Positions 2,201 through 26,900 of a stretch of DNA of 42,566 nucleotides are shown here, in pieces; within the stretch, counting starts at the first letter, position 1; each line of letters begins with the position of its first letter. This stretch comes from a virus. The notes beneath the pieces were generated by a model. The model saw nothing but the letters and a program-made list of their open reading frames with translations. It was not told the origin of the DNA and did not search any database. The position numbers and the translations under genes are program-made. The stretch lies in the IMG/VR virus record IMGVR_UViG_3300042868_002685, positions 1-42,566 of that record. One strand, 5' to 3'.

Positions 2201-2285
2201 TAGTCAGGACAGGAATCGAACCTGTAACCTCTTTGGGCGAGCTGTTCTTGCGGGAAGCCCTCGTCTACCATTCCGCCACCTGACT
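2201..2285 (-). tRNA. tRNA of class II length with abnormal anticodon arm
   Basis: Read on the minus strand, a 7-bp acceptor stem (AGTCAGG with CCTGACT), U8, a D-arm with GG in the loop (GAATGGTAGA), a variable arm with CTC/GAG, and a perfect T-arm (ACAGG, loop TTCGATT, CCTGT) are all present in 85 nt, as in Leu or Ser tRNAs. The discriminator is A and no CCA is encoded. The anticodon region (GGGCTTCCCGCAAGAACAG) does not form a 5-bp stem with a 7-nt loop, and no U33-anticodon-purine37 arrangement fits a paired stem. I therefore give no anticodon. It is either a decayed tRNA or a tRNA-like RNA with another job. Confidence 0.7.
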
Positions 2286-3425: not shown

Positions 3426-3674
3426 CTATAACAGCTTAACCCAAATGGGGGTTTTAGCCCCCATCCAAGTTCCACGTACATTACAATCAAAAAAATTTAA
3501 GGCTTTATCATACTCTATCCCCTGACTCATCAAAATCTCAATGCATTTATCTACAGAATAAACTAATCGCATTTCCTCCTCCTCTATGCCAATAACCGCA
3601 TTGTCAAAACCATCAGCCTTGACAAACTCTTCGTTGGGATAGGTATGTATAATTTTATTAAGAACCTGCTTCAT
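3426..3674 (-). CDS. Conserved small phage protein (AVIGIEE...RLVYSV...NVRGTWMGAKTPIW type)
   Basis: The 82-residue protein matches, from memory, a widespread uncharacterised family in tailed phages with the order DNAVIGIEEE, RLVYSVDKCIEILM, FDCNVRGTWMGAKTPIW. The family has no agreed function. The chosen ATG at 3672-3674 gives a 17-nt overlap with the end of groEL; a longer start at 3701 would overlap 44 nt and lacks the conserved N-terminus. It follows groEL in the same operon but is not a GroES. Confidence 0.7.
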   Translation of the reverse strand: MKQVLNKIIHTYPNEEFVKADGFDNAVIGIEEEEMRLVYSVDKCIEILMSQGIEYDKALNFFDCNVRGTWMGAKTPIWVKLL

Positions 3675-5274
3675 ACGTCCTTGACATCGTAATGATAGCA
3701 TTCGTACTTAGTATAGTTATTGCAACTGAGACTGCATTCTGTAGTGCACTTCTCGTTACCTTTAATGGGTCAATAACACCCATCGCAATTAAATCCCCCA
3801 TCTTACCATCTTTCAGGTTATAACCCCAACCCTCTTTTTTCTCACCGCTATAAATATCTTCAGAACTTAATCCTGCATTAGTTAATATTTGCTTTAGTGG
3901 TGACTCAATTGCAAGCTGAATAATTAAACTCGCAATCTTATATTCGTCAGATGCGTCTTTTTCTACAAACTCTGAGCAGTTAATCTCGTACAACGCCTTA
4001 CCTGCACCCGACAATATCCCTTCCTCCAAGGCTGAACGTACCGCGCATACCGCGTCGTCTACTCTATCAAATAATTCCTTCTGCTCCAAGTCAGTGTTAC
4101 CACCAACGTAGATTACACCAACACCACCCGTGAGTGATGCGATTCTCTCTAAGATAAAGTCCTTGTCCGTCTTTCTCTTTGCCATTGCGTGAGCGTCCCA
4201 CAACTGTGCAACTCTCTCCCCAATTAATGTCTCGTCCGCCTTTGCAGTTGACTTAACAAGTACCGTGCTGTCTCTACCAACAATTACTCTACTTGCGTGA
4301 CCTAAATCAGCGTAACTGATATGAGACAAATCATCTCCGGTTTTCTCGCTGAAGTACGTGGCTCCGACGCTAATAGCAATATCTTGCATCAGCTCGTGCT
4401 GCTTGTACCCAAAGTTCGGTGGTTGAATTGTGCATATCTTTAAGTTGTTCTTCATTACGTTAGCGGCAATAGTGTTAACCACATTGGTAGAGCACGGTGC
4501 AATGATTAGTAATTTTTTACCCTCAGATATAATTGGTTTTAATACGTTCTCAATCTGCAAGATGTTACTAATATCCACATCTGCTACCATTACCATCACG
4601 TCCTCGAATATACACTCGTCCTTCTTTTGGTTATTGATAAACAGCTGAGACGAGTAACCTCTCTCAATCTTTAATCCTTTAGTGGTTTCTGCGTAGGTGT
4701 CCGCAGTCTGCGACCTTTCGACGGTCACGATACCATTCTTACCCACCTCTTTATATACCTCAGAGATAATCTTACCTATCTCCTTGTCATTGTTTGCCGA
4801 TATAGTTGCCACATCGGACAACATTGCGTTACTTACCTTCTTACTTTTCTTGACCAACTTGTCCACCACCTTAGTGGTTATGTCCGATAGCGCTCTTAGC
4901 ACCTCCGTTCTGTTGTGCCCTTCTTTAATTGAATCAAGCCCCCCTAATACCAAAGCCTCAGTTAAGACAATTGCAGTAGTCGTACCGTCACCGGCACTTG
5001 TAGCAGTTCTGTCTGCCGCCTCTTTCATAATCTTAACCGCAAGGTTTTCTACAGGGTCTAACAAGTCAATAGACTTTGCTACTGTTACCCCGTCCTTTGT
5101 TACCGTAATACCGTGTGTGTGATTTGGTGATTCAATTAACACCGTGTTTCCACTTGGACCTAATGTGCTCTTGACAGCCTTCGCCATCAACTTAACACCA
5201 TTAGCTAATTTTTCCCTACCCTGCTCGTCGAACTGTAAGTTCTTAGGAGAGTACCCTAAATTTTCTGTTTGCAT
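3658..5274 (-). CDS. groL: Phage chaperonin GroEL (Hsp60)
   Basis: The 538-residue protein has the hallmark segments of group I chaperonins in order: the LGPSGNTV nucleotide-site start (near 39), TKDGVTVAKSI (near 59), AGDGTTTAIVLTEAL (near 93, ATP hydrolysis loop), and DDAVCAVRSALEEGILSGAG (near 405, with the conserved Asp). Length is close to the bacterial 545-550. The usual C-terminal GGM repeat tail is missing; the protein ends SRTYEAGS. It probably folds virion or replication proteins, with the GroES-like product at 1-105 as lid. A TATATTTG box lies 28 bp upstream. Divergence from host GroEL (for example LGPSGN instead of LGPKGR) argues for a phage lineage. Confidence 0.95.
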   Translation of the reverse strand: MQTENLGYSPKNLQFDEQGREKLANGVKLMAKAVKSTLGPSGNTVLIESPNHTHGITVTKDGVTVAKSIDLLDPVENLAVKIMKEAADRTATSAGDGTTTAIVLTEALVLGGLDSIKEGHNRTEVLRALSDITTKVVDKLVKKSKKVSNAMLSDVATISANNDKEIGKIISEVYKEVGKNGIVTVERSQTADTYAETTKGLKIERGYSSQLFINNQKKDECIFEDVMVMVADVDISNILQIENVLKPIISEGKKLLIIAPCSTNVVNTIAANVMKNNLKICTIQPPNFGYKQHELMQDIAISVGATYFSEKTGDDLSHISYADLGHASRVIVGRDSTVLVKSTAKADETLIGERVAQLWDAHAMAKRKTDKDFILERIASLTGGVGVIYVGGNTDLEQKELFDRVDDAVCAVRSALEEGILSGAGKALYEINCSEFVEKDASDEYKIASLIIQLAIESPLKQILTNAGLSSEDIYSGEKKEGWGYNLKDGKMGDLIAMGVIDPLKVTRSALQNAVSVAITILSTNAIITMSRTYEAGS

Positions 5275-7324: not shown

Positions 7325-7340
7325 GTGTCTTTGAAGACAC
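7325..7340. repeat. 16-bp palindrome GTGTCTTTGAAGACAC, copy 1
   Basis: Near-perfect palindrome GTGTCTTTGAAGACAC, one of seven close copies in the window (others at 8216, 9906, 12890, 16561, 22110, 32754). This copy is in non-coding DNA, not next to a stop codon, which argues that the element can act as DNA and not only as an RNA hairpin. Confidence 0.75.
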
Positions 7341-7573: not shown

Positions 7574-8212
7574 ATGACAAATTTACTTAACATTGAGTCG
7601 GCATTCTTAAGTATGCCTGAGGTAAAACAAGGTTTAAACCTATTAGAAATTAAAAGATTAAACGCTACACTAAGTAACGGGCAAAAAAAGAAATTCGCTA
7701 CCACGTTAACATTGAGCGCGGTGGTATTAAAGGCGTTCGAATGGTATAGCAGTGACGCGGGCAAGGCGCTAATGAGCAATGAGGGCATAACGTGGACGGC
7801 GGAGGATTTTGCAAATAAGGTTTTCGGGTGGGGTAAAAGCTATTTCTATAAAGTAGTTAAGGCGGGCAAATTAGCGCCTGAGGTGATAGAAAGTTTTAAT
7901 TTAAAATGTGATGACATCGAGGCGAGCGGAGACGAGCCGAATAGAACATTAGAGGGTTTATTGAAATTCGCAAAGGCGGTGGACGAAAATATCAATGTAG
8001 GTGGAGAAAATGAAGGCGAAGGCGAAGGCGAAGGAGCCGACGTTGAGGTGCGCGTACCTACTATATTGACGTTCACGTTCAAACCTGAAAACGACAAAAA
8101 CGTATCGGTACGTATAGACGCAAACGGCGTAATAAAGACCACTAATAGCAACGACGAAATTTATAGCGCCTTGCAAGTATTAATGAACAAATTAGCAGAA
8201 AACCAAAATTAA
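7574..8212 (+). CDS. Putative DNA-binding protein with GE-repeat linker
   Basis: The 212-residue protein has a helical N-terminal half; FANKVFGWGKSYFYKVVKAGKL at residues 83-104 resembles a helix-turn-helix in which a short sequence is followed by a recognition helix. A low-complexity linker GENEGEGEGEGADVEV at about 143-158 is encoded by repeated GAAGGC units (8012-8034). The C-terminal part is a small strand-rich domain (VPTILTFTFKPENDKNVSVRID). It is the first gene after the control region and may regulate it. Its DNA is less AT-rich than most of the window. No family is recognised. Confidence 0.6.
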   Translation: MTNLLNIESAFLSMPEVKQGLNLLEIKRLNATLSNGQKKKFATTLTLSAVVLKAFEWYSSDAGKALMSNEGITWTAEDFANKVFGWGKSYFYKVVKAGKLAPEVIESFNLKCDDIEASGDEPNRTLEGLLKFAKAVDENINVGGENEGEGEGEGADVEVRVPTILTFTFKPENDKNVSVRIDANGVIKTTNSNDEIYSALQVLMNKLAENQN

Positions 8213-8215
8213 TCA

Positions 8216-8231
8216 GTGTCTTTAAAGACAC
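8216..8231. repeat. 16-bp palindrome GTGTCTTTAAAGACAC, copy 2
   Basis: Perfect palindrome starting 4 nt after the stop at 8212. In RNA it would form a 6-bp hairpin with a UUAA loop capping the end of the first message. The next gene starts at 8250. Confidence 0.75.
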
Positions 8232-8249
8232 ATAAAACCCCCAAAAAAT

Positions 8250-9182
8250 ATGAAAACTACAAAAAAACAAATTGGTATCGAGTACACATTAACGGGCTCA
8301 ATTGAGCGCGGACAGGTTACGGGCTACCATCGTAAACCTGAGGCGCTAAAATTAAATAAGACGCCTTATAGAGTGGATATATCAGGTTTAAAAACTGCGG
8401 GCGTGCGACAAGCTATAAAAATTGATGGCGCGGTTTACGAGTCTAAATTTACGATAGGTATGGAGGTGGAAAAAAATAATTTGCATAGAGGCGCGGTGCG
8501 TGAATATGAATTGTTTTGCGGGTTCGAGCGCGACGGGTCGTGTGGGTATGAGGCGGTGACACATATACTGCCTTTGATACCTGAAAGCAAATGGCGTACA
8601 AAAATTTACGATATGATGCATAAAGCGGAGAAAATTATAGATGACCGCTATAGTCCCTCGAATAGCAGTTGCGGTGGTCACATTACCTTAGCGGTGGACG
8701 GGTTAACGGGCGCGCAATTAAACGCGGAGGTGCGCGAATATTCGGGTATCGTATTGGCAATGTTTCGAAATAGACTAAAAAACGTGTACTGCGGTGCCAA
8801 TCGTCGAATGCAAGCAAGCGGATTAGATGGGATGTATAATAGCGCGCCCGCGGGACGTGGCACGTATGATTATAACGGGTGGCACTATAAATACCAAACT
8901 GCATTGGTTAAGGGTAATTTATTAGAATTTAGATTGCCGAGCCGATTTGAGTCGGTTAAACAAATGATGCGTAGGTACGAATTGATGTATGAATTGGTAA
9001 ACTTTGCGGTGAACGTGCAAGGGACGCAAAAAGCATTCTTTGCGAAAATACGCCCTATTATCCTATCAATGTATAACGGAGAAACGGAGAAAACCGACAA
9101 AATTTTTCAATTAGCAAAAGATTTCCAGAATTTCATAAATACGGGGGTAATTAGTGAGGAAATATCGGTCTACCTTAGGTAG
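8250..9182 (+). CDS. Amidoligase-like (COOH-NH2 ligase) protein
   Basis: The 310-residue protein shows the motif order of the amidoligase family, which is related to glutamine synthetase and ATP-grasp-like ligases that join carboxyl and amino groups: FTIGMEVEK near 68-76 (paired Glu for metal/ATP), ERDGSCGYEAVTHILPL near 92-108, SCGGHITLAV near 139-148, and GNLLEFRLPSRFES near 221-234. The C-terminal third is helical. Family members form amide or peptide bonds and occur with glutamine amidotransferases and cyclotransferases in phage and bacterial gene sets; such a fusion lies 2.6 kb downstream at 11786. Its substrate is unknown; cell wall or peptide tag modification is possible. Confidence 0.7.
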   Translation: MKTTKKQIGIEYTLTGSIERGQVTGYHRKPEALKLNKTPYRVDISGLKTAGVRQAIKIDGAVYESKFTIGMEVEKNNLHRGAVREYELFCGFERDGSCGYEAVTHILPLIPESKWRTKIYDMMHKAEKIIDDRYSPSNSSCGGHITLAVDGLTGAQLNAEVREYSGIVLAMFRNRLKNVYCGANRRMQASGLDGMYNSAPAGRGTYDYNGWHYKYQTALVKGNLLEFRLPSRFESVKQMMRRYELMYELVNFAVNVQGTQKAFFAKIRPIILSMYNGETEKTDKIFQLAKDFQNFINTGVISEEISVYLR

Positions 9183-9190
9183 TCGGTATC

Positions 9191-9210
9191 GGGGGCGCTC
9201 AGGCGCTCCT
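9191..9210 (+). other. Hairpin capping the amidoligase message, upstream of hammerhead 1
   Basis: GGGGGCGC (9191-9198) pairs with GCGCTCCT (9203-9210) around TCAG; 8 bp including two G-U pairs. It starts 9 nt after the stop at 9182 and ends against ribozyme stem III. After ribozyme cleavage at 9216 it would protect the 3' end of the upstream mRNA. It lacks a U-run, so it is not a terminator. Confidence 0.65.
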
Positions 9211-9262
9211 GACGTCGTGGGATGAGTGTCCCACCTGATGAGTCCTAAAGGACGAAACGGCA
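9210..9262 (+). ncRNA. Type III hammerhead ribozyme 1
   Basis: All core positions are present. Stem I is GTGGGA (9217-9222) with TCCCAC (9229-9234), loop TGAGTG. The CTGATGA box is at 9235-9241. Stem II is GTCC (9242-9245), loop TAAA, GGAC (9250-9253). The GAAA box is at 9254-9257. Stem III pairs G9211-T9215 with A9257-C9261 with one mismatch (A9212/G9260), plus T9210-A9262. The predicted cut is after C9216 (GUC). It lies in the 102-bp gap between the amidoligase gene and the 9285 gene; cleavage would leave a 68-nt leader with a 5' hydroxyl. No activity is shown here, but the agreement with the family is complete. Confidence 0.88.
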
Positions 9263-9284
9263 AACCTTTAAACCAATAAACAAG

Positions 9285-9506
9285 ATGGACTTAACAAAAT
9301 TTACAAAGGAAAAAATTACTGACGAAAATTTAATAAACGCAATTACTTTTCAGGGTATTGACGTTTGGGAAAGCGCCGACGGGAACCAATGGGTTTCAGA
9401 TTGGAACGGCAATTTAATATTGTGCAAAAACGAAGATTTGTGGTTAGGTGATGAGTGGGGAAGCACTGAAACGGAGATGTTTATTTTAAAACCTTTAAAC
9501 CAATAA
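9285..9506 (+). CDS. Small hypothetical protein behind hammerhead 1
   Basis: A 73-residue acidic protein rich in Trp (VWESADGNQWVSDWNG, DLWLGDEWGS). No family is recognised. The start codon is 68 nt after the predicted ribozyme cut site and is preceded by AAACCAATAAACAAG, a leader that recurs in this region. Being the first gene after the ribozyme, its translation is the one most likely to be affected by cleavage. Confidence 0.65.
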   Translation: MDLTKFTKEKITDENLINAITFQGIDVWESADGNQWVSDWNGNLILCKNEDLWLGDEWGSTETEMFILKPLNQ

Positions 9507-9510
9507 GACT

Positions 9511-9675
9511 ATGAAAAAACTAAAGATGGCTAAGTTGTGGGCAGTGGACTGCTTTTGCTTAGGTAAGTACGTTCAGATGTACACGTTCAAAAAGTGTTCA
9601 GATGCGGTAAAGATGGCGCTAACGATTGAGGGGGCTAAGGTAGAGCGTAGAGAGTGTTTAACGGACAAGTATTAA
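9511..9675 (+). CDS. Very small hypothetical protein, 54 residues
   Basis: The frame reads MKKLKMAKLWAVDCF at the start and ends VERRECLTDKY. It sits 4 bp after the previous stop, with an AAACCAATAAGACT leader, and the next ATG follows 5 bp after its stop. The tight spacing and the leader support it. It is basic with one Cys-rich stretch (DCFCLGK). Function unknown. Confidence 0.6.
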   Translation: MKKLKMAKLWAVDCFCLGKYVQMYTFKKCSDAVKMALTIEGAKVERRECLTDKY

Positions 9676-9680
9676 AGCAT

Positions 9681-9905
9681 ATGGACAAGTTCAGAGTGTG
9701 CGGAATAACCTCAGAGGGATACCCGCAAGTAGAGGTAAGCGATTTATCGTACGATGAGGCGGTAAAGGAGATGAATAGGCGAAAGAGTTTCTTTCCTGAT
9801 GTGGATTTTTATATTGATGTAGCTCCTGATGAGGCACCAATGCGTAGAATAAATACAAGGGAGGTGGCTGATGGTTGGGAGGATTTCTTTCCTGATTATG
9901 AGTGA
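9681..9905 (+). CDS. Small hypothetical protein, 74 residues
   Basis: I start the gene at ATG 9681 (MDKFRVCGITSEGYP) because a longer GTG start would overlap the previous gene. The product is acidic with the pattern YDEAVKEMNRRKSFFPDVDFYIDVAPDE, suggesting an alpha/beta mini-domain, and ends WEDFFPDYE. A 16-bp palindrome begins at the first base after the stop codon. Function unknown. Confidence 0.6.
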   Translation: MDKFRVCGITSEGYPQVEVSDLSYDEAVKEMNRRKSFFPDVDFYIDVAPDEAPMRRINTREVADGWEDFFPDYE

Positions 9906-9921
9906 GTGTCTTTAAAGACAC
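9906..9921. repeat. 16-bp palindrome GTGTCTTTAAAGACAC, copy 3
   Basis: Perfect palindrome that starts immediately after the TGA at 9903-9905 and is followed by a tRNA-like minihelix. The stop-hairpin-structured RNA-start order matches the hammerhead 2 gap. Confidence 0.75.
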
Positions 9922-9922
9922 G

Positions 9923-9964
9923 GCTATGTATGGTATAAACAAGAGTTCGAGTCTCTTGCATAGC
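9923..9964 (+). ncRNA. tRNA-like acceptor/T-arm minihelix
   Basis: GCTATGT (9923-9929) pairs with GCATAGC (9958-9964; 7 bp, one G-U). The 3' strand directly follows a T-arm: AAGAG (9941-9945), loop TTCGAGT, CTCTT (9953-9957). The loop fits the TTCRANY consensus, and the two stems have the 7+5 bp geometry of a tRNA top half. The linker ATGGTATAAAC replaces the D and anticodon arms and still contains GG. The 3' sequence is GCGA, not CCA. It could be an RNase P substrate, a tRNA remnant or a 5' leader structure for the gene at 10003. Confidence 0.55.
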
Positions 9965-10002
9965 GCGAGCAATATTGCTTAATTAAACCAATAACAAATA
10001 AG

Positions 10003-10308
10003 ATGAACAAAAAAATGTATGTTGTAAAGTACAACGATGCCCACGGAAATGGGGACAATCAAAATTTAGAAGTTATAGTTGAAAATCGTAATCAATTTTT
10101 AAGTTGGTTGGATGAACATAACGAGAGTAGAGATGCCGAGCCTGAGACAGAAGATGAGTTCGAGCTTATACCTTTAAATGTATATTCCTCAGGGAGTATA
10201 ACTATTCCTATTTATTATTACGAGGACGACGACAACGAAAAGGTTTACGACGTCGAGGAAATGACCAAAGAATTTGAGACGGCAATTTATCAATTAGAAA
10301 GAAAGTAA
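10003..10308 (+). CDS. Acidic hypothetical protein
   Basis: A 101-residue protein, strongly acidic (EPETEDEFELIPL, YEDDDNEKVYDVEEM) with a strand-like N-terminus (MYVVKYNDAHGNGDNQNLEVIV). This resembles small phage inhibitor or DNA-mimic proteins only in charge. The leader AAACCAATAACAAATAAG precedes the ATG, 38 nt after the tRNA-like minihelix. The next gene starts 1 nt after its stop. Function unknown. Confidence 0.65.
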   Translation: MNKKMYVVKYNDAHGNGDNQNLEVIVENRNQFLSWLDEHNESRDAEPETEDEFELIPLNVYSSGSITIPIYYYEDDDNEKVYDVEEMTKEFETAIYQLERK

Positions 10309-10309
10309 G

Positions 10310-10498
10310 ATGAAAAAAAGAACAATTTTATTAGCCTTAGGTGGCGTGATTTATTCGGGTGTGATAGTCTACCTGATGAGTATTTTAAACAGCCTCAATC
10401 CATTTGAGTGGGTGGTGCTGATGTGTACAATGTTTTTATCCTTAGGCGCAGTAGCGTACGGGTGTAATAGATTAGATAACAATTTAAACAACAAGTAA
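10310..10498 (+). CDS. Small two-helix membrane protein
   Basis: The 62-residue protein has two membrane helices, about residues 5-24 (TILLALGGVIYSGVIVYLMS) and 33-52 (FEWVVLMCTMFLSLGAVAYG), and a polar Asn-rich tail. It is co-transcribed with acidic small genes on both sides. It could act on the host membrane early in infection, but nothing more can be read from the sequence. Confidence 0.65.
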   Translation: MKKRTILLALGGVIYSGVIVYLMSILNSLNPFEWVVLMCTMFLSLGAVAYGCNRLDNNLNNK

Positions 10499-10499
10499 G

Positions 10500-10646
10500 A
10501 TGGAGATTTACATCGAGTACCTAAACAAAGACAACGGCTACAAGGTAGCACGTAAAGACTTTGGTTCGTTCGAGAGCGCTCGCAGTTGGGGACAGCAGAA
10601 CATTGACAATTTTATTTTGGATATGATTAAAATTAAAGTATTATGA
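10500..10646 (+). CDS. Very small hypothetical protein, 48 residues
   Basis: The frame MEIYIEYLNKDNGYKVARKD... ends MIKIKVL. It starts 1 nt after the previous stop (TAAGATG) and its TGA overlaps the next ATG (ATGA), so it is almost certainly translated as part of the run. The pattern FGSFESARSWGQQNI suggests a small alpha/beta fold. Function unknown. Confidence 0.65.
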   Translation: MEIYIEYLNKDNGYKVARKDFGSFESARSWGQQNIDNFILDMIKIKVL

Positions 10647-10876
10647 GAGATTTAGATTTATTAATCAGACAAGCAATAGCAAAATCTGATAAAGACCAAT
10701 ATGGTCAGTGTGTTACAAGACATACAACAATTTATGGTTTATTCAGGAATGAAGGTGATGAGTTTCGAGCAGAAATAGAGGCACATTTAAAAAGCGGGAA
10801 TAGTAAATATGTATTACAATGCTACGGAGGAAGTCTCGGTGTGTTCTATGCAATTAATCCTTGTCCTAAAAAATAA
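10643..10876 (+). CDS. Small hypothetical protein, 77 residues
   Basis: The product begins RDLDLLIRQAIAKSDKD, a helical segment, and ends YGGSLGVFYAINPCPKK with a strand-like hydrophobic stretch. It overlaps the previous gene by 4 nt. The 29-bp gap to the next gene carries the A-rich leader AATTTAAACAAATAAAAAA. No family is recognised. Confidence 0.65.
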   Translation: MRDLDLLIRQAIAKSDKDQYGQCVTRHTTIYGLFRNEGDEFRAEIEAHLKSGNSKYVLQCYGGSLGVFYAINPCPKK

Positions 10877-10905
10877 TTAATTAAACAATTTAAACAAATA
10901 AAAAA

Positions 10906-11268
10906 ATGGGTAGATATTATAGAGGCGACATCGAGGGCAAGTTTTGGTTCGGGTTGCAAACAAGTGATTGCGCAAGTAGATTTGGTGGTCAGGCAAATGA
11001 ACCACAATACATCGAGTATAAATTTGATGAGGACGATTTAGATGGTATTAAAAAAGAGATTGCAAAAATTCAGGAGTCACTGGGAGAAAACCTCAAGAGA
11101 ATTAGTGACTATTTTAAAAACAATAACGGCTATACTATGGAGGAATTTCAGGCTATGGGTATAACTGATGAGATGCTATCTGACTACGCTGACTTAGAGT
11201 TGGGTATTCAAATTAGAGATTGCGTGATAGCAGAGGGTAGTTGTAATTTTGATGCAGATTTAAACTAA
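10906..11268 (+). CDS. Conserved hypothetical protein (GRYYRGDIEGKFWFG family)
   Basis: The 120-residue protein starts GRYYRGDIEGKFWFGLQTSDCASRFGG, a pattern I recognise from uncharacterised phage and bacterial proteins that start with (Y)YSGDIEGKFWF-VQSSD. The middle is a charged helix (residues 40-70) and the C-terminus is acidic. No catalytic motif is assigned. The leader AATTTAAACAAATAAAAAA before its ATG is duplicated before the next gene. Confidence 0.7.
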   Translation: MGRYYRGDIEGKFWFGLQTSDCASRFGGQANEPQYIEYKFDEDDLDGIKKEIAKIQESLGENLKRISDYFKNNNGYTMEEFQAMGITDEMLSDYADLELGIQIRDCVIAEGSCNFDADLN

Positions 11269-11290
11269 AACAATTTAAACAAATAAAAAA

Positions 11291-11491
11291 ATGGAGCAAA
11301 AAGTAGACGTGTACCAAGAGCGACAAGAGTTGTTGCAAGAGGTGATTGATAGATTGATTTACCTACCGAAGTATCGTAGGAGTTCTTTCAAAGATAAGTT
11401 AGATATACTTATCAGAATGTACCCGATTGAGTTCAGGGAAGTTAACGGAGTGAGAGTGTTTGAAATAGTAAAGGAGACGTGTGATGAATAA
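11291..11491 (+). CDS. Small hypothetical protein, 66 residues
   Basis: A helical, charged protein (VYQERQELLQEVIDRLIYLPKYRR) with a short C-terminal strand (EVNGVRVFEIV). It follows the leader duplicated from gene 10906 and overlaps the next gene by 8 nt. The family is unknown. Confidence 0.6.
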   Translation: MEQKVDVYQERQELLQEVIDRLIYLPKYRRSSFKDKLDILIRMYPIEFREVNGVRVFEIVKETCDE

Positions 11492-11681
11492 GAAAATTGT
11501 ATGGAGCGTGGTCGAGGTGCCGACGAATTACGCCAAAATATTCTACAAGAAAACAAACTTAGTAGTGGCGCAGTTCGATACCAAACAACAAGCTAACGAG
11601 TTTACGGAGGTCAACAATATTGACGCGTACCACGATGAGATGATTGAGTGCTTCGCTATCAAACCAAGCTATAAAGATTAA
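11484..11681 (+). CDS. Small hypothetical protein, 65 residues
   Basis: From ATG 11484 the protein reads MNKKIVWSVVEVPTNYAKIFY and has the alternating pattern of a small alpha/beta fold (LVVAQFDTKQQANEFTEV). Its start lies within the previous gene (8-nt overlap). It is the last gene before a new promoter and leader at 11693-11785. The similarity in layout to the 9511 and 10500 gene products is only general. Confidence 0.6.
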   Translation: MNKKIVWSVVEVPTNYAKIFYKKTNLVVAQFDTKQQANEFTEVNNIDAYHDEMIECFAIKPSYKD

Positions 11682-11692
11682 ATTAAATTAAA

Positions 11693-11724
11693 TTTGGATA
11701 TGTGCAATATATGTGCTATCTTAG
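11693..11724 (+). promoter_or_regulatory. Promoter TTTG-20-TATCTTAG before the amidotransferase fusion gene
   Basis: TTTG (11693-11696) and TATCTTAG (11717-11724) are 20 bp apart, matching the Bacteroidota -33/-7 pattern with one mismatch in the -7 box (TAnnTTTG). This puts the start near 11730 and gives a leader of about 55 nt with a hairpin. Confidence 0.5.
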
Positions 11725-11741
11725 TGTTTTATTAACAAACC

Positions 11742-11769
11742 GAGTTCTCCGCCTTGTTAGGTGGTGCTC
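11742..11769 (+). other. 5' leader hairpin of the amidotransferase fusion gene
   Basis: CCGCCT (11749-11754) pairs with AGGTGG (11759-11764; one G-U) around TGTT, with an outer GAG/CTC pair across an internal loop. It ends 16 nt before the ATG at 11786. It may stabilise the mRNA or regulate its translation. Confidence 0.45.
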
Positions 11770-11785
11770 ATAAACCAAACAAACT

Positions 11786-12880
11786 ATGTGCGTAATTATC
11801 GTAAAGCAAAACAAAAACAAGATGCCAATTGATGTGGCTAAAACGTCATCAAAAATTAATCCTCACGGATTGGGAGTGATATGGTTGGATACCTACGAGG
11901 TATCGCACCATACCTCTAAAGAGTACAAGATTCTCGACACCGACAGACCATTCATTGCGCATTTCAGATACGCTACAATTGGTGCAGTAGGTTTAGATAA
12001 CACACACCCATTTAAGTGTGGTAAAAACAAAGCAGAGTGGCTAATGATGAACGGGACGATTCGTGGGTTGGGTGACACCAAGAAGTGTGACTCAAAAGTT
12101 CTTGCCGAGCAGATTGGCTCCAAGCCACGTCACACGTGGAGGGAAGTATTGGAGCAGTACGATAGCAGATTCGTAACTATCAACACACGTAACCGCACGT
12201 TTCAGATGTACAACAAAGATATGTGGCACAAGAAAGACGGCATATGGTACAGCAAAGATAACGTGTTGCAGGATAATTTAGTGGCTGTGTACGGCACGCT
12301 CAAGAAAGGCGAGAGTAATTACTATTCATACCTTACCGACTCAAAGTTAGTCGGTAAGGGTGAGACCAAAGACAAGTACCCACTAATAATCAAGGGATTG
12401 CCTTACCTGATAGATGACATTGGAGTGGGACATAATGTAGAGGTGGACGTGTTCAAAGTTACTGATGCTACGCTTGCCCGATTAGATGCGTTGGAGGGAC
12501 ACCCACATTGGTACCAAAGAAAGTTGGTGCCTATCAAGACCGCTAAAGGTAACGAGTTGATGTGTTGGGTATACTTTAATATAGAAGAGAAAGTTAACGG
12601 GCAGAAGATGCACAAGACATTCAAGCGGGAGCCCGCACCATTAAAAAAGATTGAGAATAATTATTGGAGTTCTAAATTCCATAAGCCATACGAGTTGCAG
12701 TGGGACGAGAGGCAGAGTATAATGCAAGACGAGGAGCAACAAGAGTACAATATAGATGAAGAGACACCAATGTGTGTAGAATGTTATAACGATTTGAAGT
12801 TCGATGGGTTCGCAAACTATCATTGCGGGGGTTGTGGTAGTTGGTTCACGGAGACTGAAATCGTCAGGTTTAGACCATAA
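11786..12880 (+). CDS. Fusion of class II glutamine amidotransferase, gamma-glutamylcyclotransferase-like domain and zinc ribbon
   Basis: The 364-residue protein has three parts. Residues 1-160 look like an Ntn-type glutamine amidotransferase: after removal of Met1, Cys2 (MCVI) would be the nucleophile, with FIAHFRYAT near 54, THPF near 73 and WLMMNGTIRG near 87. Residues 168-275 are an AIG2/GGCT-like domain: VYGTLKKG binding loop near 169 and LDALEGHP near 233 with the probable catalytic Glu. The C-terminus has CVEC near 328 and CGGCG near 349, a zinc ribbon. The first domain would release ammonia from glutamine and the second opens gamma-glutamyl amides. With the amidoligase at 8250 it probably forms one amide-making and amide-editing pathway. 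Hammerhead 2 follows. Confidence 0.78.
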   Translation: MCVIIVKQNKNKMPIDVAKTSSKINPHGLGVIWLDTYEVSHHTSKEYKILDTDRPFIAHFRYATIGAVGLDNTHPFKCGKNKAEWLMMNGTIRGLGDTKKCDSKVLAEQIGSKPRHTWREVLEQYDSRFVTINTRNRTFQMYNKDMWHKKDGIWYSKDNVLQDNLVAVYGTLKKGESNYYSYLTDSKLVGKGETKDKYPLIIKGLPYLIDDIGVGHNVEVDVFKVTDATLARLDALEGHPHWYQRKLVPIKTAKGNELMCWVYFNIEEKVNGQKMHKTFKREPAPLKKIENNYWSSKFHKPYELQWDERQSIMQDEEQQEYNIDEETPMCVECYNDLKFDGFANYHCGGCGSWFTETEIVRFRP

Positions 12881-12884
12881 AAAG

Positions 12885-12912
12885 CGGGAGTGTCTTTAAG
12901 GACACTCTCCCG
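12885..12912 (+). other. Hairpin with GTGTCTTTAAGGACAC palindrome, competing with hammerhead 2 stem III
   Basis: CGGGAGTGTC (12885-12894) pairs with GACACT and CCCG (12901-12906, 12909-12912) with a two-base CT bulge; the loop is TTTAAG. The inner 16 nt (12890-12905) are copy 4 of the palindrome family. The hairpin begins 4 nt after the stop at 12880. Its CCCG (12909-12912) is also the 5' strand of ribozyme stem III, so the two structures cannot form together. Confidence 0.75.
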
Positions 12913-12960
12913 TATCGAGATGAGTTGTCTCGACTGATGATTCCTAAAGGATGAAACGGG
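12909..12960 (+). ncRNA. Type III hammerhead ribozyme 2
   Basis: Stem III is CCCGT (12909-12913) with ACGGG (12956-12960), 5 bp. The predicted cut is after A12914 (GUA). Stem I is TCGAGA (12915-12920) with TCTCGA (12928-12933), loop TGAGTTG. The CTGATGA box is at 12934-12940. Stem II is TCC (12942-12944), loop TAAA, GGA (12949-12951). The GAAA box is at 12953-12956. The usual first G-C pair of stem II is replaced by a U/U apposition (12941, 12952), which may slow the reaction. Stem I differs completely in sequence from hammerhead 1 but stays fully paired, while loops and core are kept. Cleavage would leave a 71-nt leader before the ATG at 12986. Confidence 0.87.
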
Positions 12961-12985
12961 ATTTAAAAAACTAAAACAAAAACAA

Positions 12986-13216
12986 ATGACAAAAGAATTT
13001 AAGTTTAATATCGACGTAAAGTACGTACGATATGAAAGAGAAGAGTTTTCAGTAAGTTGCAATACTGAGGAAGTAGCTATTCAGTTAGCGAAAGAGTACG
13101 TATCAGGTATGAAAAAAGAGTTCTCTGATGGGGAGTACGTTGAAGACATAACGATTAGCGACTCTAATGGAGACTACATTGAAGACGTAATGGCGGAAGG
13201 AGATATGATAGTATGA
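12986..13216 (+). CDS. Small hypothetical protein behind hammerhead 2
   Basis: A 76-residue acidic protein with strand-rich N-terminus (FKFNIDVKYVRYEREEFSVS), a helix (TEEVAIQLAKEYVSGMKKEF) and an acidic end (YIEDVMAEGDMIV). It starts 25 nt after the ribozyme with an A-rich leader (AAAACAAAAACAA). The next gene overlaps it by 4 nt. The family is unknown. Confidence 0.65.
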   Translation: MTKEFKFNIDVKYVRYEREEFSVSCNTEEVAIQLAKEYVSGMKKEFSDGEYVEDITISDSNGDYIEDVMAEGDMIV

Positions 13217-16558: not shown

Positions 16559-16576
16559 GCGTGTCTTCAAAGACAC
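16549..16576 (+). repeat. Tandem hairpins at the end of the exonuclease gene; 16-bp palindrome copy 5
   Basis: CACGC (16549-16553) pairs with GCGTG (16559-16563) across the stop codon, and GTGTCTTCAAAGACAC (16561-16576) is the fifth palindrome copy. The two hairpins share three bases, so only one can form fully at a time. They lie 10 nt before the next ATG. Confidence 0.65.
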
Positions 16577-16586
16577 TTAGACCAAT

Positions 16587-20966: not shown

Positions 20967-22384
20967 TGGACATACTCGAAAGAATACCATCATACTCAGA
21001 TGAGATGATGTGGAAATATTGTGAGTCACTAAAAAATATTGTTCTCACAAAGAAACCAAATAAAGACGCATTAAAATACTATACACCAAAAGAAATAATT
21101 GATAGAGTTGTTTTGAGTTGTGATTACTATAAAAATAATATGACAGGTTCAGATAAGTTTAAACTACGAGATTACCAAGAGAACATTATTCAGTGGGGCT
21201 CAGAGATTCTATCTGCAAAAGGATTCGTGTATCTTACTATGGAGGTTAGAACGGGTAAGACGCTAACAAGTTTAGGTATAGCAAAGGCTATAGGTGCCGA
21301 GAATGTTTTATTTATCACAAAGAAGAAAGCAATTGACTCTATTGAACGTGATTACAATCTAATGAATGGTACGTTCAATTTAAAAGTAATTAATTACGAG
21401 AGCCTACACCTTGTAGCCAACGAATGTAAGTGGGATTTAATCGTATGCGACGAAGCGCATTCAATGGGGGCTTTCCCAAAGCCAAGCAATCGTGCTTCGT
21501 TGGTGAAGTCGGTGATTCAAAAATACAAAAGCAAAGTAATTTTATTGTCAGGCACACCAACACCTGAGTCATTCTCTCAGATGTATCATCAAGTGTATGG
21601 TATTCCTAATAACCCGTTCAGCGAGTTTGTAAACTTTTATAAGTTTTGCGCCAAGCACGTTAAGATAAAGCAGAAAAAAATTGGCAGTATGTTCATTAAT
21701 GATTACAGCGAAGGCTTACCAAGCATTCTCGATGTGATGAGACCATACACCATAAACTACACGCAGGCTGACGCAGGATTTAAAGTTGTAACGACAGAGA
21801 ATGTTTTACAAGTAGAGTTGAAGCAGTCTACGTATGAGCTGATTAAAAGACTTAAAAAAGATTTAGTGATAGAGGGTAAGGAGGAGTTGATATTAGCTGA
21901 CACAGCAGTGAAGTTAATGAGCAAGCTACACCAATTATATTCAGGGACGGTAAAGTTTGAGAGTGGTAAATCTATGGTAATAGATAACACCAAGGCAGAG
22001 TTTATCAATTCACATTTCAAAGGCAAGAAGATTGGTATCTTCTATAAGTTTAAAGAGGAATTGAATGCGCTTAAGGATGCGTTTGGTGATGAGCTAACAA
22101 CAGAGCTTAGTGTCTTTGAAGACACAGACAAAAGTATAGCACTACAAATTGTATCAGGCAGAGAAGGAATTTCTTTAAGGCAAGCATCGTGCCTTGTTTA
22201 TTACAACATTGACTTTAGCGCAACAAGCTACTGGCAGAGTAAAGACCGAATGACCACCAAAGAACGTCTTGAGAATGACGTGTATTGGGTCTTCGCCAAG
22301 GATGGTATTGAATATGACATCTACAAAGCAGTAACAAAGAAAAAAGATTATACAGTTTCACATTTTAAAAAATTATTATTATGA
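20966..22384 (+). CDS. SNF2/SSL2-type DEAH helicase
   Basis: The 472-residue protein has superfamily 2 motifs: LRDYQENIIQWG near 68 (Q motif-like), MEVRTGKT near 92 (Walker A without the usual leading GxG), INYESLH near 137, DEAH near 161, LSGTPTPES near 191, and in the second domain GKKIGIFYKFKEEL near 350, ALQIVSGREGISLRQASCLVYYNID near 391, and ARG-finger-like QSKDRMTTKER near 425. This is the single-chain phage helicase often found beside a VRR-NUC nuclease. It overlaps the next gene by 4 nt. Copy 6 of the 16-bp palindrome lies within its codons at 22110-22125. Confidence 0.85.
   Translation: MDILERIPSYSDEMMWKYCESLKNIVLTKKPNKDALKYYTPKEIIDRVVLSCDYYKNNMTGSDKFKLRDYQENIIQWGSEILSAKGFVYLTMEVRTGKTLTSLGIAKAIGAENVLFITKKKAIDSIERDYNLMNGTFNLKVINYESLHLVANECKWDLIVCDEAHSMGAFPKPSNRASLVKSVIQKYKSKVILLSGTPTPESFSQMYHQVYGIPNNPFSEFVNFYKFCAKHVKIKQKKIGSMFINDYSEGLPSILDVMRPYTINYTQADAGFKVVTTENVLQVELKQSTYELIKRLKKDLVIEGKEELILADTAVKLMSKLHQLYSGTVKFESGKSMVIDNTKAEFINSHFKGKKIGIFYKFKEELNALKDAFGDELTTELSVFEDTDKSIALQIVSGREGISLRQASCLVYYNIDFSATSYWQSKDRMTTKERLENDVYWVFAKDGIEYDIYKAVTKKKDYTVSHFKKLLL
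22110..22125. repeat. 16-bp palindrome GTGTCTTTGAAGACAC, copy 6, inside the helicase gene
   Basis: The sequence is identical to copy 1 and lies in frame as part of SVFEDT. Being inside a coding region, it is better explained as a site kept for DNA binding than as a 3'-end hairpin. Confidence 0.7.
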
Positions 22385-23529: not shown

Positions 23530-23932
23530 AACAGATGAGGATAAAATAAGAGAACTTAAATCCGTAACAACATTTGTAAATATTTTTGGTGGTTCATTCA
23601 AAAGACTTGATGCTAATGACGTGAACTTTAAGATATTCGATAAGGATAAAAACTTAATTGCGTATGTTGAGGTTATACCAAGATTACGCTCAATGAGAAT
23701 GGCTTACCCATTAATTGTTCCAGTAAAGAAAATGATTAAGCTGATTGATAAGCGACTAAACCCAACACTTATATGGTGTTGTGAGGATGGTATTATTTAT
23801 GGTAGGATTGAGCATCTTAACGGAACTATAAGTTTTGATGGGCGCACCCCAAGTGCAGGTACGCCCAATAATTCAGAGTTGATGGCTTACTTTGATAAGC
23901 AGAAGTCTTTAAAGTATATACGCTTTACCTAA
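23513..23932 (+). CDS. Hypothetical protein, 139 residues, last gene of the plus-strand run
   Basis: The protein starts MMTTFKTDEDKIRELK and has a strand-rich alpha/beta middle (KSVTTFVNIFGGSFKRLD, FKIFDKDKNLIAYVEVIPRLRSM) that looks like a restriction-fold or CRISPR-like RAMP scaffold only superficially; PTLIWCCEDGIIYGRI follows. Similar EVKPR/IPR-containing proteins of phages are uncharacterised. It overlaps the previous gene by 17 nt and meets the giant gene tail to tail with a 4-nt overlap. Confidence 0.6.
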   Translation: MMTTFKTDEDKIRELKSVTTFVNIFGGSFKRLDANDVNFKIFDKDKNLIAYVEVIPRLRSMRMAYPLIVPVKKMIKLIDKRLNPTLIWCCEDGIIYGRIEHLNGTISFDGRTPSAGTPNNSELMAYFDKQKSLKYIRFT

Positions 23933-26900
23933 GAACCAAATCTTTTAGTTTTACCCTTACCGCTTGCTCCAAACCTTTGAGTTTTCTTTGTTCCGCTTGC
24001 CCCAAATCTTTTTACGCTTCCGTCAGAGTTTCTACCTGTATAATTCATCTTCTCGTCCTTCATCTGTTGAACTTTCTTTCTAAGAAGACTCTCTACCTCT
24101 TTTTCTTCCTTGTGACTCTCATACCAATCAGACCCCTCACCAAAATTTTGTTCCCACAAATCTTTATTGTATCTTTTTAGGTCTGACTCGCTGTCGTACT
24201 CCTCACCCGTATCAGGGTCTACCAATAACTTTTTCTTTGCTTGCTTTTCTTGAGCGTTCTCTTGCTTAATTGCTTTTTTCTCTTCGCTATCAGCATCTAC
24301 CTCATCAATCTTTTCTCGTGCCTGTTTAATGATGGCTTCATCATTAGATTCCTCGATGATACTTTTAAGTGCGTTAATTTTTTCTTGCTTATTAGACTCT
24401 CTCTCCTCTTTATTTTCTTTAGCCTGAGCTTTCTCAGCAGTCGACTTTGTATTCTTCTTAGCATACTTAACAGCATTCTTAACCACCGTGTTTACCTCCG
24501 AAGGAGCAAGACCCATATTTGATAACATTGCAAATGGCAATAAATATGTTATTTGTTCTTGTCTTTCACTTGAGATGGTGTGTTTCTTATTAAAGTCATC
24601 AGTGTACTCTCCTGTTGCCGCTAACTTAGTCATATCATAAAGCTCCGTAGCTCTTTGCGCTGATATACCAAACGTCCCCAAGTTAGAGGTCCAATCAGAT
24701 TTTCTTACACCAAAAGTAGATACAGGTAAACCTGTTCCTTCTTCTAATAAAGTGGAAACTGTTTCTACTGCTGCTTGAATTGGTTTATCTACAATAGGAA
24801 GCGGAGATATAATATCCGTAATCGTACCAGTCCACTGACCCTTGATTATATCATTCATACGCTTATCTTTTTCTTCCTCGTCCTCATCTTCTCCCATTCC
24901 CATCTTAGTTAATGTACCTAATGTAATAGCGATACCTGCACTAATCATTTTAAATGTAGCTAACTCGACTCCAAAACCTGCAACAGATTTTGCTGCAATT
25001 TTTTTATCTTCTGCAGTTGCAGTCTTGTCGGATAATGTTGCAAGGTCCGCACCTAATCTTGCCGATTGATTCATTCTAAAACTTGCAAATGGCATTAACA
25101 TTTTCACAAGAACTTGATTAGCCGATTCCTTACTTGCAAATAATTTACCTGATAAATCTACATCAGATATATTCTGCTGTCTGTCAACCATACGCTGAGC
25201 GTAGTTTGCCGCCTTCTCATTTAACTCGTGAGTATTATAATCAATCCCCTTTGTATCTACTCCTTGCTCCTTTAAAGACTTTTCGTAATAAGTCATCCAA
25301 GATGCTCTTGCTATAAATACATCAGGGTTAACTAAAAATAATTCTAAGTATTCTTGATTTACTTTTTCAATAGTTTTTATTGTCTTATCAAAATTACCTT
25401 TAGATGCAATATCAATTAATTTATTAAGAGATTCAATTTGGGCTTGAGATTCAACACCTCTATTTGCAATTCCGTAACCCGACTCGCTTATAAACTTTTG
25501 TTTAGCCGCATCAAATGCACCCATCACATCTAAACTACCCGCATTAATTAATGTGTTTGTACCAACGGATACCGTCTGCTTGATAGGTTGCGTAACACCA
25601 CCTAAAGCCTGACCTACACCAAAAGCTGCAAGTCTATTTAATCTTCTAACAGCCTTAGAGAATTGGTCGTCTGTATAAGGGTTTTTATTTCTAATGTTCC
25701 TTATATATAATTGTATCCTATCTTTTAATATTTTAGCATCGTCAGCTGTAGGTACAATCTTTTCAAAATCTTCTGAGTTTTCAAATGCCTCTATTTGTCT
25801 GATAGGTGCTGCAGTTTTTATATCAACAAGAGCATCGTACATTGCATTTGAATTGTTCTTATCAAAAGATAGCTCAATATAAGATGTAGGCTTACCATTC
25901 TTTTTATTGGTAGGTAAAGTTTCAGGCTTAGTTGCCTTCATTAATACGCCTGTTTCTTTTTTATAGATTGTACCATTATTATTATGAAATGCAGATTCAT
26001 CGTTTGCTAAATCAACTTCGCCTGTATCAGAACTTATCTTTGCAAATCTATCAGGGCTACTATAATTAATATCTTTTTCTAATATTTTATTATATATATT
26101 CTCAGATACGTCAGATAACTCTTGGTATATATTAGCCCACTCGTTCATCCAAAAATCAATAGCCTCTAAGTTAGTCTTGTCGGTTTTGTTTTTTATTTCT
26201 TGGATATTATTAGTATCTGCTAAAATCTTATCGTATGCCTTTTGATATAACTTACCCTTTTGTTTTTCTACGTCGTTACCTTTAGATAAAACTTCAATAG
26301 ATTCTTCAAGTAAATTCTTTCTTCTGTTGAACTCACTTTTCATTTCCTGCTCAGTACCAATAACATTCCTCATCATAAATGAAGACATATTTCTTTCTAC
26401 GTTATTATATTCGGTATTAAACGCCTCACCATTAGCTTTTTTGTTAAAGAACTGCTTTACGTAGTTATTAACAATAATATTTGATTTAGTTTGAGCATTA
26501 GATTTACCATTAATAAGATTGGTAACACCCATCATATCCTGTACCTCACCCGACCTATTAAACCCTTTGAACATTTTTTCAAATAGGATAGGGAGCGTTG
26601 TAGTTTGTTCTGCTAAGAATCTACCAAATCCTTTTGAAAAATACTTCATTAAAGGTTGAGCCTTAATACCTGATTTCGCTAATTTACGCGCGTTTAATCT
26701 ACCAGTATAGTCAGAAACAACCGTCTGCATTTTTGCAGTAGATTGGTTTTGAATAAAGTTAGCAAGAGCATCTACAGCTTGAAGAGATTCTTTAGGAGTA
26801 AGAATACTTAGGTCCATATCCATAAATTGCTTTATTAAAGTTTTTTGGTTTTTAGTCAGCTCAACTTTTTCTCCTGTATAGAATGCATCGTAATTTGTCT

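Follow-up and report, generated by a model that had tools for sequence, protein, structure and literature searches.

Stop-codon hairpins beside hammerhead ribozymes and a tRNA-like minihelix in gene gaps of a Bacteroidota-type phage

Introduction

Polycistronic mitochondrial RNA is cut at tRNAs that lie between the genes and are recognised by RNase P, and in the MALAT1 and MEN-beta RNAs a tRNA-like RNase P substrate comes immediately after a 3′-end triple helix. These tRNA-like elements have been named as substrates of RNase P, an enzyme that gauges the T-arm/acceptor stack from the elbow (PMC4919913). Earlier work showed that the distance from the elbow to the RNase P cut in such stacks is fixed. 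The non-tRNA RNAs on which RNase P acts include phage C4 antisense RNA, M3 RNA, T4 gene 32 mRNA, and operon mRNAs (PMC11143913). The role of hammerhead ribozymes in phage genomes has been a standing question since their discovery there. Hammerheads with the core considered here are known to cleave, and cleavage of phage hammerheads was seen both in vitro and in E. coli (PMC3088659). Gut phages of Bacteroidota and Bacillota also carry self-cleaving theta ribozymes, which are tied to tRNA processing (PMC10879173).

We analyzed a window of 42,566 nt, IMG/VR record IMGVR_UViG_3300042868_002685, in which a sequence-only reading had described ribozymes and structured RNAs between genes, without knowing of any phage system with such a layout. 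That claim of novelty holds only in part: the splitting of long transcripts into single-gene mRNAs by clustered phage hammerheads had been inferred earlier by Perreault et al. (2011, PMC3088659).

Results

The window is DNA of a Bacteroidota-type phage, and the hairpins, hammerheads, minihelix, leaders, and 310-amino-acid gene placed below lie on its plus strand. Three gaps of interest (9183–9284, 9906–10002, and 12881–12985, with folding z-scores of −3.6, −2.8, and −3.3, respectively) each ran, as the sequence-only reading had proposed, from a stop codon through a hairpin and an RNA fold to an A-rich leader and an ATG. The stop-near hairpins opening the gaps were located at 9189–9212, 9906–9921, and 12887–12908; none had a U-tract or the form of an intrinsic terminator. 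The three-gap pattern stood, but the reading had missed two further gaps, 8213–8249 and 16559–16586, in which the same hairpin occurs without a cutter (GUGUCUUUAAAGACAC at 8216–8231 and GUGUCUUCAAAGACAC at 16561–16576). The former precedes a conserved gene of about 310 amino acids (8250–9182), with a hammerhead in the gap 3′ of it in most relatives; the gene had no Pfam match, and its product is perhaps a very distant amidoligase relative. The structured gap at 11682–11785 was rejected as a fourth member, with a z-score of −1.8 and only a hairpin at that place in relatives. Elsewhere, a 4025-amino-acid protein was rejected as a virion RNA polymerase because the DxDxD motif was absent and a RadC-like domain was present.

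We propose that these gaps would be processing sites at which a long phage transcript is cut just downstream of individual genes. The constant part of each site would be the hairpin shortly 3′ of the stop codon, and the cutter would be exchangeable: a hammerhead would cleave itself, mostly 5–6 nt past the hairpin, or a minihelix would direct host RNase P to cut 0–2 nt past it. After either cut, the upstream message would have its 3′ end buried in the hairpin, and the downstream message would be structured at its 5′ end and carry a short A-rich leader. At other gaps in the same phage group, the hairpin stands alone or has a U-tract after it, the latter form serving as an intrinsic terminator. 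We consider this explanation, a hairpin and an exchangeable cutter splitting the phage transcript, to be probable, and we infer cutting of these copies in the cell, a role for RNase P as the second cutter, and slower 3′ decay owing to the hairpin.

The type III hammerhead ribozyme HHR1 (9209–9263; GUC, G10.1–C11.1) was found both by a descriptor and by Rfam RF00008 (42.6 bits, E = 9e-7), and the type III hammerhead HHR2 (12907–12962; GUA) matched RF00008 with 34.4 bits (E = 1.9e-4). Both matches were full-length but fell short of the gathering score (48.5), and a default Rfam scan therefore misses both. The two shared the core CUGAUGA...GAAA, three stems with stem III open, and an H17 residue, and their loops, UGAGUG/UAAA in HHR1 and UGAGUUG/UAAA in HHR2, were those already read from the sequence. 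The core pattern was expected 0.09 times per shuffled window. Cleavage was predicted after C9216 in HHR1 and after A12914 in HHR2, and A-rich sequence leads from HHR1 (9264–9284) to the ATG at 9285 and from HHR2 (12963–12985) to the ATG at 12986. Upstream, the hairpin UCGGGGGCGC-UCAG-GCGCUCCUGA (9189–9212) overlaps stem III of HHR1 by about 2 nt and would cap the upstream message at its 3′ end, and the hairpin GGAGUGUCUUUAAGGACACUCU (12887–12908) abuts stem III of HHR2; in the cleaved product the latter can grow to 12884–12913 at the expense of stem III, whose CCCGU strand it takes. HHR2 has a U-U mismatch at 10.1–11.1 (12941/12952), a point on which the earlier reading was silent, where HHR1 has a Watson–Crick G-C pair; stem III of HHR1 contains one G-A mismatch. 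These U-U and G-A mismatches could slow cleavage. A DNA search of annotated phages with the hairpin–hammerhead module gave no match, two other DNA queries gave short weak matches, real tRNAs, and unannotated faecal contigs, and a TAAA-loop hammerhead pattern had no match in bacterial genomes.

The fetched loci contained 176 distinct hammerheads, and the layout sought by the sequence-only reading in related phages did recur, with paired stems present. Among 101 nonredundant hammerheads all pairs of stem I varied, and loop I stayed UGNGUG-like and loop II NAAA-like, in agreement with the proposed selection for structure and loop contact. Chance similarity and recent copying, the latter already doubted from the window, were both rejected on covariation, and on sequence grounds HHR1 and HHR2 are real hammerheads. 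The mispaired U-U at 10.1–11.1 occurred in 38 of the 176 distinct hammerheads and in 20 of 46 relatives of the HHR2 gap; it is likely tolerated, because this subclass is conserved. As in described phage arrays, two or more hammerheads flanking genes on one strand were present here, and most hammerheads sat in the order stop, hairpin, ribozyme, about 23 nt, and ATG. A same-strand stop and ATG within 80 nt accompanied 59/75 hammerheads and 43/65 minihelices versus 31/589 random sites.

A strong hairpin ended at most 9 nt from the cleavage site in 54 of 63 nonredundant hammerheads (score of at least 15) versus 5.6% in shuffles, the loci having been fetched without use of the hairpin; the other nine mostly had a bulged hairpin on reading by eye. 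The spacing from hairpin to cleavage site had its mode at 5–6 nt, and the loops beside hammerheads included UUCG, GAAA, and UNRA types. The expected hairpin cap at the 3′ end was likewise borne out as a prediction: a hairpin closed the predicted 5′ product, leaving no more than 6 nt unpaired at the 3′ end and with an MFE of −10 or below, in 89/101 hammerheads versus 24% of shuffles. The hairpin might instead be a folding insulator that shields a cutting hammerhead from the upstream mRNA and gives no 3′-end protection, which would suit its position against stem III in most cases and the competition of the HHR2 hairpin and stem III for one strand. However, the same hairpin is kept in ribozyme-free orthologous gaps, sometimes with a U-tract, and so has its own purpose; we judge the insulator unlikely.

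The palindrome near the stop could also be a repeated DNA element, REP-like or a protein-binding site, with the ribozyme neighborhood incidental. Its core sequence is strongly conserved in the phage group, and 60 of 253 GUGUC...GACAC copies in these contigs, about a quarter, lay in called ORFs, indicating that the hairpin is not only a 3′-end element. Against this, TTCAAA and TTTGAA loop orientations stood at 51:11 after stop codons but at 13:10 inside genes, and a bias confined to stops is expected if RNA rather than a DNA palindrome is selected there. Moreover, the hairpins that other phage groups have at this place are unrelated, with UUCG or GAAA in their loops, and the distance to the cleavage site varies within narrow limits. 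We judge a DNA element quite improbable.

In the middle gap, the hairpin GUGUCUUUAAAGACAC (9906–9921) follows the TGA stop codon by 0 nt, and a tRNA-like minihelix follows at 9923–9968 (covariance model R1, 42.5 bits, E = 2.6e-8). It consists of acceptor strands (9923–9928/9959–9964), a D-loop-like linker with AUGGU (9929–9939), a T-stem (9940–9945/9953–9958) with the T-loop UUCGAGU (9946–9952), and a 3′ GCGA (9965–9968); a small hairpin, GAGCAAUAUUGCUU (9967–9980), lies just 3′ of it, weak in the window and of a kind enriched in the family. The fold at 9923–9964, recognized in the earlier reading as tRNA-like though no cutter was named for it, was conserved with compensatory changes in related loci (L006, L011, L032, L091, L221, L233, and L247). 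Having an acceptor/T-arm and neither a D-stem nor an anticodon arm, it is not a four-arm tRNA (RF00005); neither Rfam at gathering scores nor ARAGORN called a tRNA there, the family is absent from Rfam 15, and a literature search of open-licence papers found no description of it. Across the family 86.7% of pair cells were paired (52.7% when shuffled), and covariation was 0.783 versus 0.180, best at slide 0. The helical stack was 11–12 bp long (pairing of 0.96, 0.68, and 0.28 at levels 11, 12, and 13), its total length staying fixed while the acceptor/T-stem split varied (5+7, 6+6, or 7+5). This is the fixed-length T-arm/acceptor stack of RNase P substrates; the 3′ end showed a weak NCNA bias (C at 74, 57%; A at 76, 68%), which preserves the NCCA contact of RNase P only in part. 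The stack, AUGGU linker, and NCNA fit an RNase P substrate, and RNase P is the likely cutter, with a predicted cut before G9923.

The 5′ end of the minihelix lay a median of 9 nt from the upstream stop and about 34 nt upstream of the ATG. When minihelices from all phages were taken together, a strong upstream hairpin was present in only 22/69 (5.9% expected). Of 198 genomes sampled from the phylum to which a Paraprevotella genome belongs, one had a minihelix at E ≤ 1e-4, which indicates that the element is phage-linked. Bacterial genomes with a minihelix included those of Paraprevotella clara, Mediterranea massiliensis, and Parabacteroides massiliensis. Longer tRNA-like forms occur in similar gaps of L047 and L107. 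With these forms and the resemblance of the T-arm and acceptor to tRNA, the minihelices might be decaying tRNA genes or integration-site remnants, but the stems covary, AUGGU is kept in the linker, several copies stand between different genes of one contig (L278, L283, and L330), and the tRNA searches made no call. We regard such an origin as very improbable; the minihelix seems to be a widespread, undescribed phage RNA family.

In orthologous gaps, the hammerhead, minihelix, bare hairpin, and hairpin with U-tract replaced one another while the stop-proximal hairpin stayed. With occupancy counts biased because the loci were fetched through these elements, the gap before the 310-amino-acid gene held only a hairpin in 24 of 33 relatives, a hammerhead in 8, and a minihelix in 1; the gap after it held a hammerhead in 54, a minihelix in 1, and only a hairpin in 4; and the gap after the cyclotransferase gene held a hammerhead in 33, a minihelix in 2 (plus L221 by reading), a hairpin with T-tract in 3, and only a hairpin in others. 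Among loci fetched without a hammerhead query, 9/12 had a hammerhead after the 310-amino-acid gene. The structures, their covariation and position, and this exchange are established computationally. The exchange also bears on whether the minihelix stays uncut and acts in place, for example as a translation element or a site for a protein recognizing the tRNA elbow. Its distance from the ATG and imperfect 3′ NCCA would allow this; however, it is the upstream stop, not the start codon, to which its 5′ end lies close, the total stack length rather than each stem is fixed, and it can occupy a gap that in relatives holds a self-cleaving ribozyme. An uncut minihelix appears doubtful.

Discussion

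A hairpin fixed at the cut, with the ribozyme swapped for a tRNA-like element or a terminator, is natural evidence of one shared job, the making of defined message ends. On balance, we lean slightly towards a modular code of RNA punctuation, used by phages that infect Bacteroidota and other hosts, in which a stop-codon hairpin would be the common 3′ cap and a hammerhead, a minimal RNase P substrate, or a terminator would be interchangeable gene by gene. That many related phages exchange these devices at the same gaps suggests a general way of dividing long viral messages into single ones, each capped by a hairpin. As a natural RNase P substrate, the minihelix would rank among the smallest. The hammerheads with a non-Watson–Crick 10.1–11.1 position form, judged by their sequences, a new conserved subclass; as it is missed by Rfam thresholds and by an earlier published filter, phage ribozymes are under-counted.

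In the arrays of Perreault et al., as here, single genes or short blocks of phage or prophage DNA are bordered by several hammerheads. The part of that report drawn on here, however, makes no mention of an adjoining hairpin, a tRNA-like partner, or exchange in orthologous gaps, and it describes the rejection of matches mispaired at 10.1–11.1, a subclass common in our phages. New here are the constant hairpin partner, the family of minihelices, and the minihelix–hammerhead exchange. Theta ribozymes have an HDV-like fold and sit at the 3′ ends of tRNAs rather than between protein genes. The non-tRNA targets of RNase P likewise include tRNA-like or helical elements cut in phage RNAs and polycistronic messages, but they are single cases, whereas a covarying minihelix recurs here between many genes and phages. 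Mitochondrial punctuation uses real tRNAs, in contrast to a minimal element that lacks the anticodon arm and is swappable with ribozymes. MALAT1 and MEN-beta share with our gaps the order of a stabilizing 3′ structure and then a tRNA-like element; they are eukaryotic nuclear lncRNAs with a triple helix, and their tRNA-like fold is complete and is set free as a small RNA, whereas in the phage gaps a hairpin takes the place of the triple helix.

Gap elements in the window

The window, a 42,566-base IMG/VR virus record, encodes virion structural proteins on its minus strand, among them one with a crAss-type muzzle protein domain, and carries small, densely packed genes on its plus strand from 7.6 to 23.9 kb. 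In gap 9183–9284 (plus strand), a hairpin at 9189–9212 is followed by HHR1, a type III hammerhead at 9209–9263 (RF00008, 42.6 bits, E 9e-7); in gap 12881–12985 (plus strand), a hairpin at 12887–12908 is followed by HHR2, a second type III hammerhead at 12907–12962 (RF00008, 34.4 bits, E 1.9e-4). Gap 9906–10002 opens with GUGUCUUUAAAGACAC directly 3' of the stop codon, and next to it lies a minihelix, a tRNA-like acceptor/T-arm element, with an acceptor of 6 bp, linker UAUGGUAUAAA, a T-stem of 6 bp, and T-loop UUCGAGU. The ordered layout with two hammerheads and a minihelix claimed in the sequence-only reading was confirmed and extended. The hairpin GUGUCUUYAAAGACAC also stands 3' of two other stop codons, at 8212 and 16558, where no cutter (an adjoining hammerhead or minihelix) accompanies it. 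Seven copies of GTGTC-N6-GACAC were seen in the window and 0.00 were expected from shuffles; for the hammerhead core pattern CTGATGA-N-GAAAC, 0.09 were expected per shuffled window.

The gene at 11786–12880 (plus strand) encodes a class-II glutamine amidotransferase-like part fused to a gamma-glutamyl cyclotransferase (GGACT) domain and is kept together with the 310-aa gene in related phages. A phage-encoded GroEL-type chaperonin (3658–5274, minus strand; Pfam Cpn60, E 2.8e-54) is likewise annotated beside the homologous operon of the uncultured phage MW202828. The 4025-aa protein at 23929–36006 (minus strand) has a RadC-like domain, matches GNAT and receptor-L-domain weakly, and looks like a polyvalent phage protein. 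Rfam gave a tRNA at 2201–2285 (minus strand, 36.3 bits) that ARAGORN did not report.

Hammerheads and their hairpin partner

When viral contigs were pattern-scanned for type III hammerheads, with the hairpin no part of the query, nearly all of the many hammerheads obtained read stop, hairpin, hammerhead, leader, ATG; the layout recurs in related phages. In 54 of 63 nonredundant hammerheads, no more than 9 nt separated the end of a strong hairpin from the cleavage site (5.6% in shuffles), the spacing being exactly 5 or 6 nt in 39 of the 54; visual inspection showed a bulged hairpin in most of the other nine. Addition of the mismatch subclass brought the nonredundant hammerheads to 101, and the predicted 5' product ended in a fold (no more than 6 nt unpaired, MFE of −10 or lower) in 89 of them, compared with 119/505 shuffles. 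A same-strand stop and ATG, both within 80 nt, flanked 59/75 hammerheads and 31/589 random sites. The pairs of stem I vary freely while loops I and II stay UGNGUG-like and NAAA-like, which upholds the proposed selection for structure and loop contact. In other phage groups, the equivalent place is taken by hairpins that are unrelated to this one and have UUCG or GAAA loops, which favours RNA stability over a DNA motif as the explanation. In a separate phage group (L016, L017, L020, L021, L037, L048, L053, and relatives), GGGGCUUCGGCCCC or GAAA-loop hairpins accompany the hammerhead, and downstream genes have GGAG-type ribosome sites.

The loop of the GUGUC...GACAC hairpin had a preferred orientation 3' of stops (TTCAAA 51, TTTGAA 11) and none inside genes (13 and 10, respectively), a difference that argues for action of the hairpin as RNA, an account that would not extend to the copies inside genes. 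Copies of GTGTC...GACAC apparently not 3' of a stop codon occur in the window (7325–7340, 22110–22125, and 32754–32769) and in contig L231 (2556, 4814, 9032, and 10060), several of them within called genes.

Phage hammerheads fell into three classes by 10.1-11.1, the base pair next to the core (window 12941, 12952, and 12914; L003, L008, L019, L030, L031, L127, and others). Residue 17 was complementary to 10.1 in all three: mostly C17 with G10.1-C11.1, A17 in 36/38 with U10.1-U11.1, and U17 in 4/4 with A10.1-A11.1. This complementarity may reflect either a real contact or common ancestry.

The minihelix family

A T-loop minihelix search that set no linker condition recovered the element in hammerhead contigs, where short-linker forms carry AUGGU or ACGGU. 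Most of the later set came from a scan on linker and T-arm only; acceptor pairing lay outside that pattern but was made a requirement for entry into the set, and with that requirement paired cells amounted to 86.7% (52.7% in shuffles; n = 63). The covariation score was 0.783 (0.180 in shuffles; n = 63) and fell to 0.21–0.29 when the partner was slid by one column. The stack is 11–12 bp regardless of the acceptor/T-stem split; pairs were required up to level 10, and the drop after level 12 was not imposed. Helical stack length is the quantity that RNase P measures (PMC4919913). The 3' end shows an N-C-N-A bias, and a small hairpin lies directly 3' in 33/71 (6% expected).

A covariance model found the window copy at 42.5 bits and further copies in six contigs from the window's phage group (L011, L032, L047, L091, L112, and L221); real tRNAs of isolate phages scored about 20 bits at most. 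Rfam 15 holds no family for the minihelix, and only 1 of 198 sampled bacterial genomes had one; by sequence and predicted structure it is a new-looking RNA family. Longer tRNA-like elements occupy similar intergenic places at L047 7143–7198 (D-arm-like part, anticodon arm not clear), L107 2232–2274, and L110 4863; they are perhaps intermediates between tRNA and minihelix.

Exchange in orthologous gaps and a proposed mechanism

Gaps were treated as orthologous when the proteins upstream of their elements clustered together. Counts of gap occupancy are biased by the way loci were fetched: among 59 relatives with a median identity of 47%, the gap 3' of the 310-aa gene contained a hammerhead in 54, a minihelix in L091, and the hairpin only in four; 5' of that gene, 24 including the window had the hairpin only, eight a hammerhead, and L032 a minihelix. 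Under the same bias, 33 of 46 relatives had a hammerhead in the gap 3' of the cyclotransferase gene; a minihelix stood there in L233 and L247 (and in L221, as judged by reading), a hairpin with U-tract in L151, L155, and L156, and the hairpin only in L096, L204, and L231. Where loci had been fetched by queries other than a hammerhead, 9/12 had a hammerhead in the first gap, and the second gap was mixed. In the corresponding operon of MW202828, GTGTCGTTAACGACAC lies 3' of many stop codons, and no hammerhead was found there. The exchange of hammerhead, minihelix, and hairpin is independent of the biased counts, and we regard it as the strongest evidence of function that this comparison of sequences offers.

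The simplest reading would be a single job done in several ways, namely setting a 3' end just past the stop-proximal hairpin. Hammerhead cleavage would leave the upstream message with a 2',3'-cyclic phosphate, mostly 5–6 nt past the hairpin, and the next message with a 5'-OH. RNase P acting at the minihelix would leave a 3'-OH 0–2 nt past the hairpin and a 5' phosphate within the acceptor helix, and at the U-tract version of the hairpin transcription would end. The HHR2 strand CCCGU is predicted to pair alternatively in stem III or in the hairpin foot, so that cleavage could allow the hairpin to close fully, which would free the product. The interpretation given in the sequence-only reading is partly supported.

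Comparison with known systems

The sequence-only reading knew of no described phage system of this kind. In Perreault et al. (2011, PMC3088659), however, clustered phage hammerheads were proposed to split transcripts and cleavage was seen in vitro and in E. coli; the filter used there discarded mispaired 10.1-11.1 matches. Known RNase P targets include phage C4 and M3 RNAs and some mRNAs (PMC11143913), and theta ribozymes work beside phage tRNAs (PMC10879173). Searches of open-licence papers turned up no account of the hairpin rule, the minihelix, or the exchange, a negative that is weak evidence of absence. The concept of ribozyme cutting of phage transcripts has been published before; what appear to be new are the hairpin as a partner, the minihelix, and the exchange of these elements.
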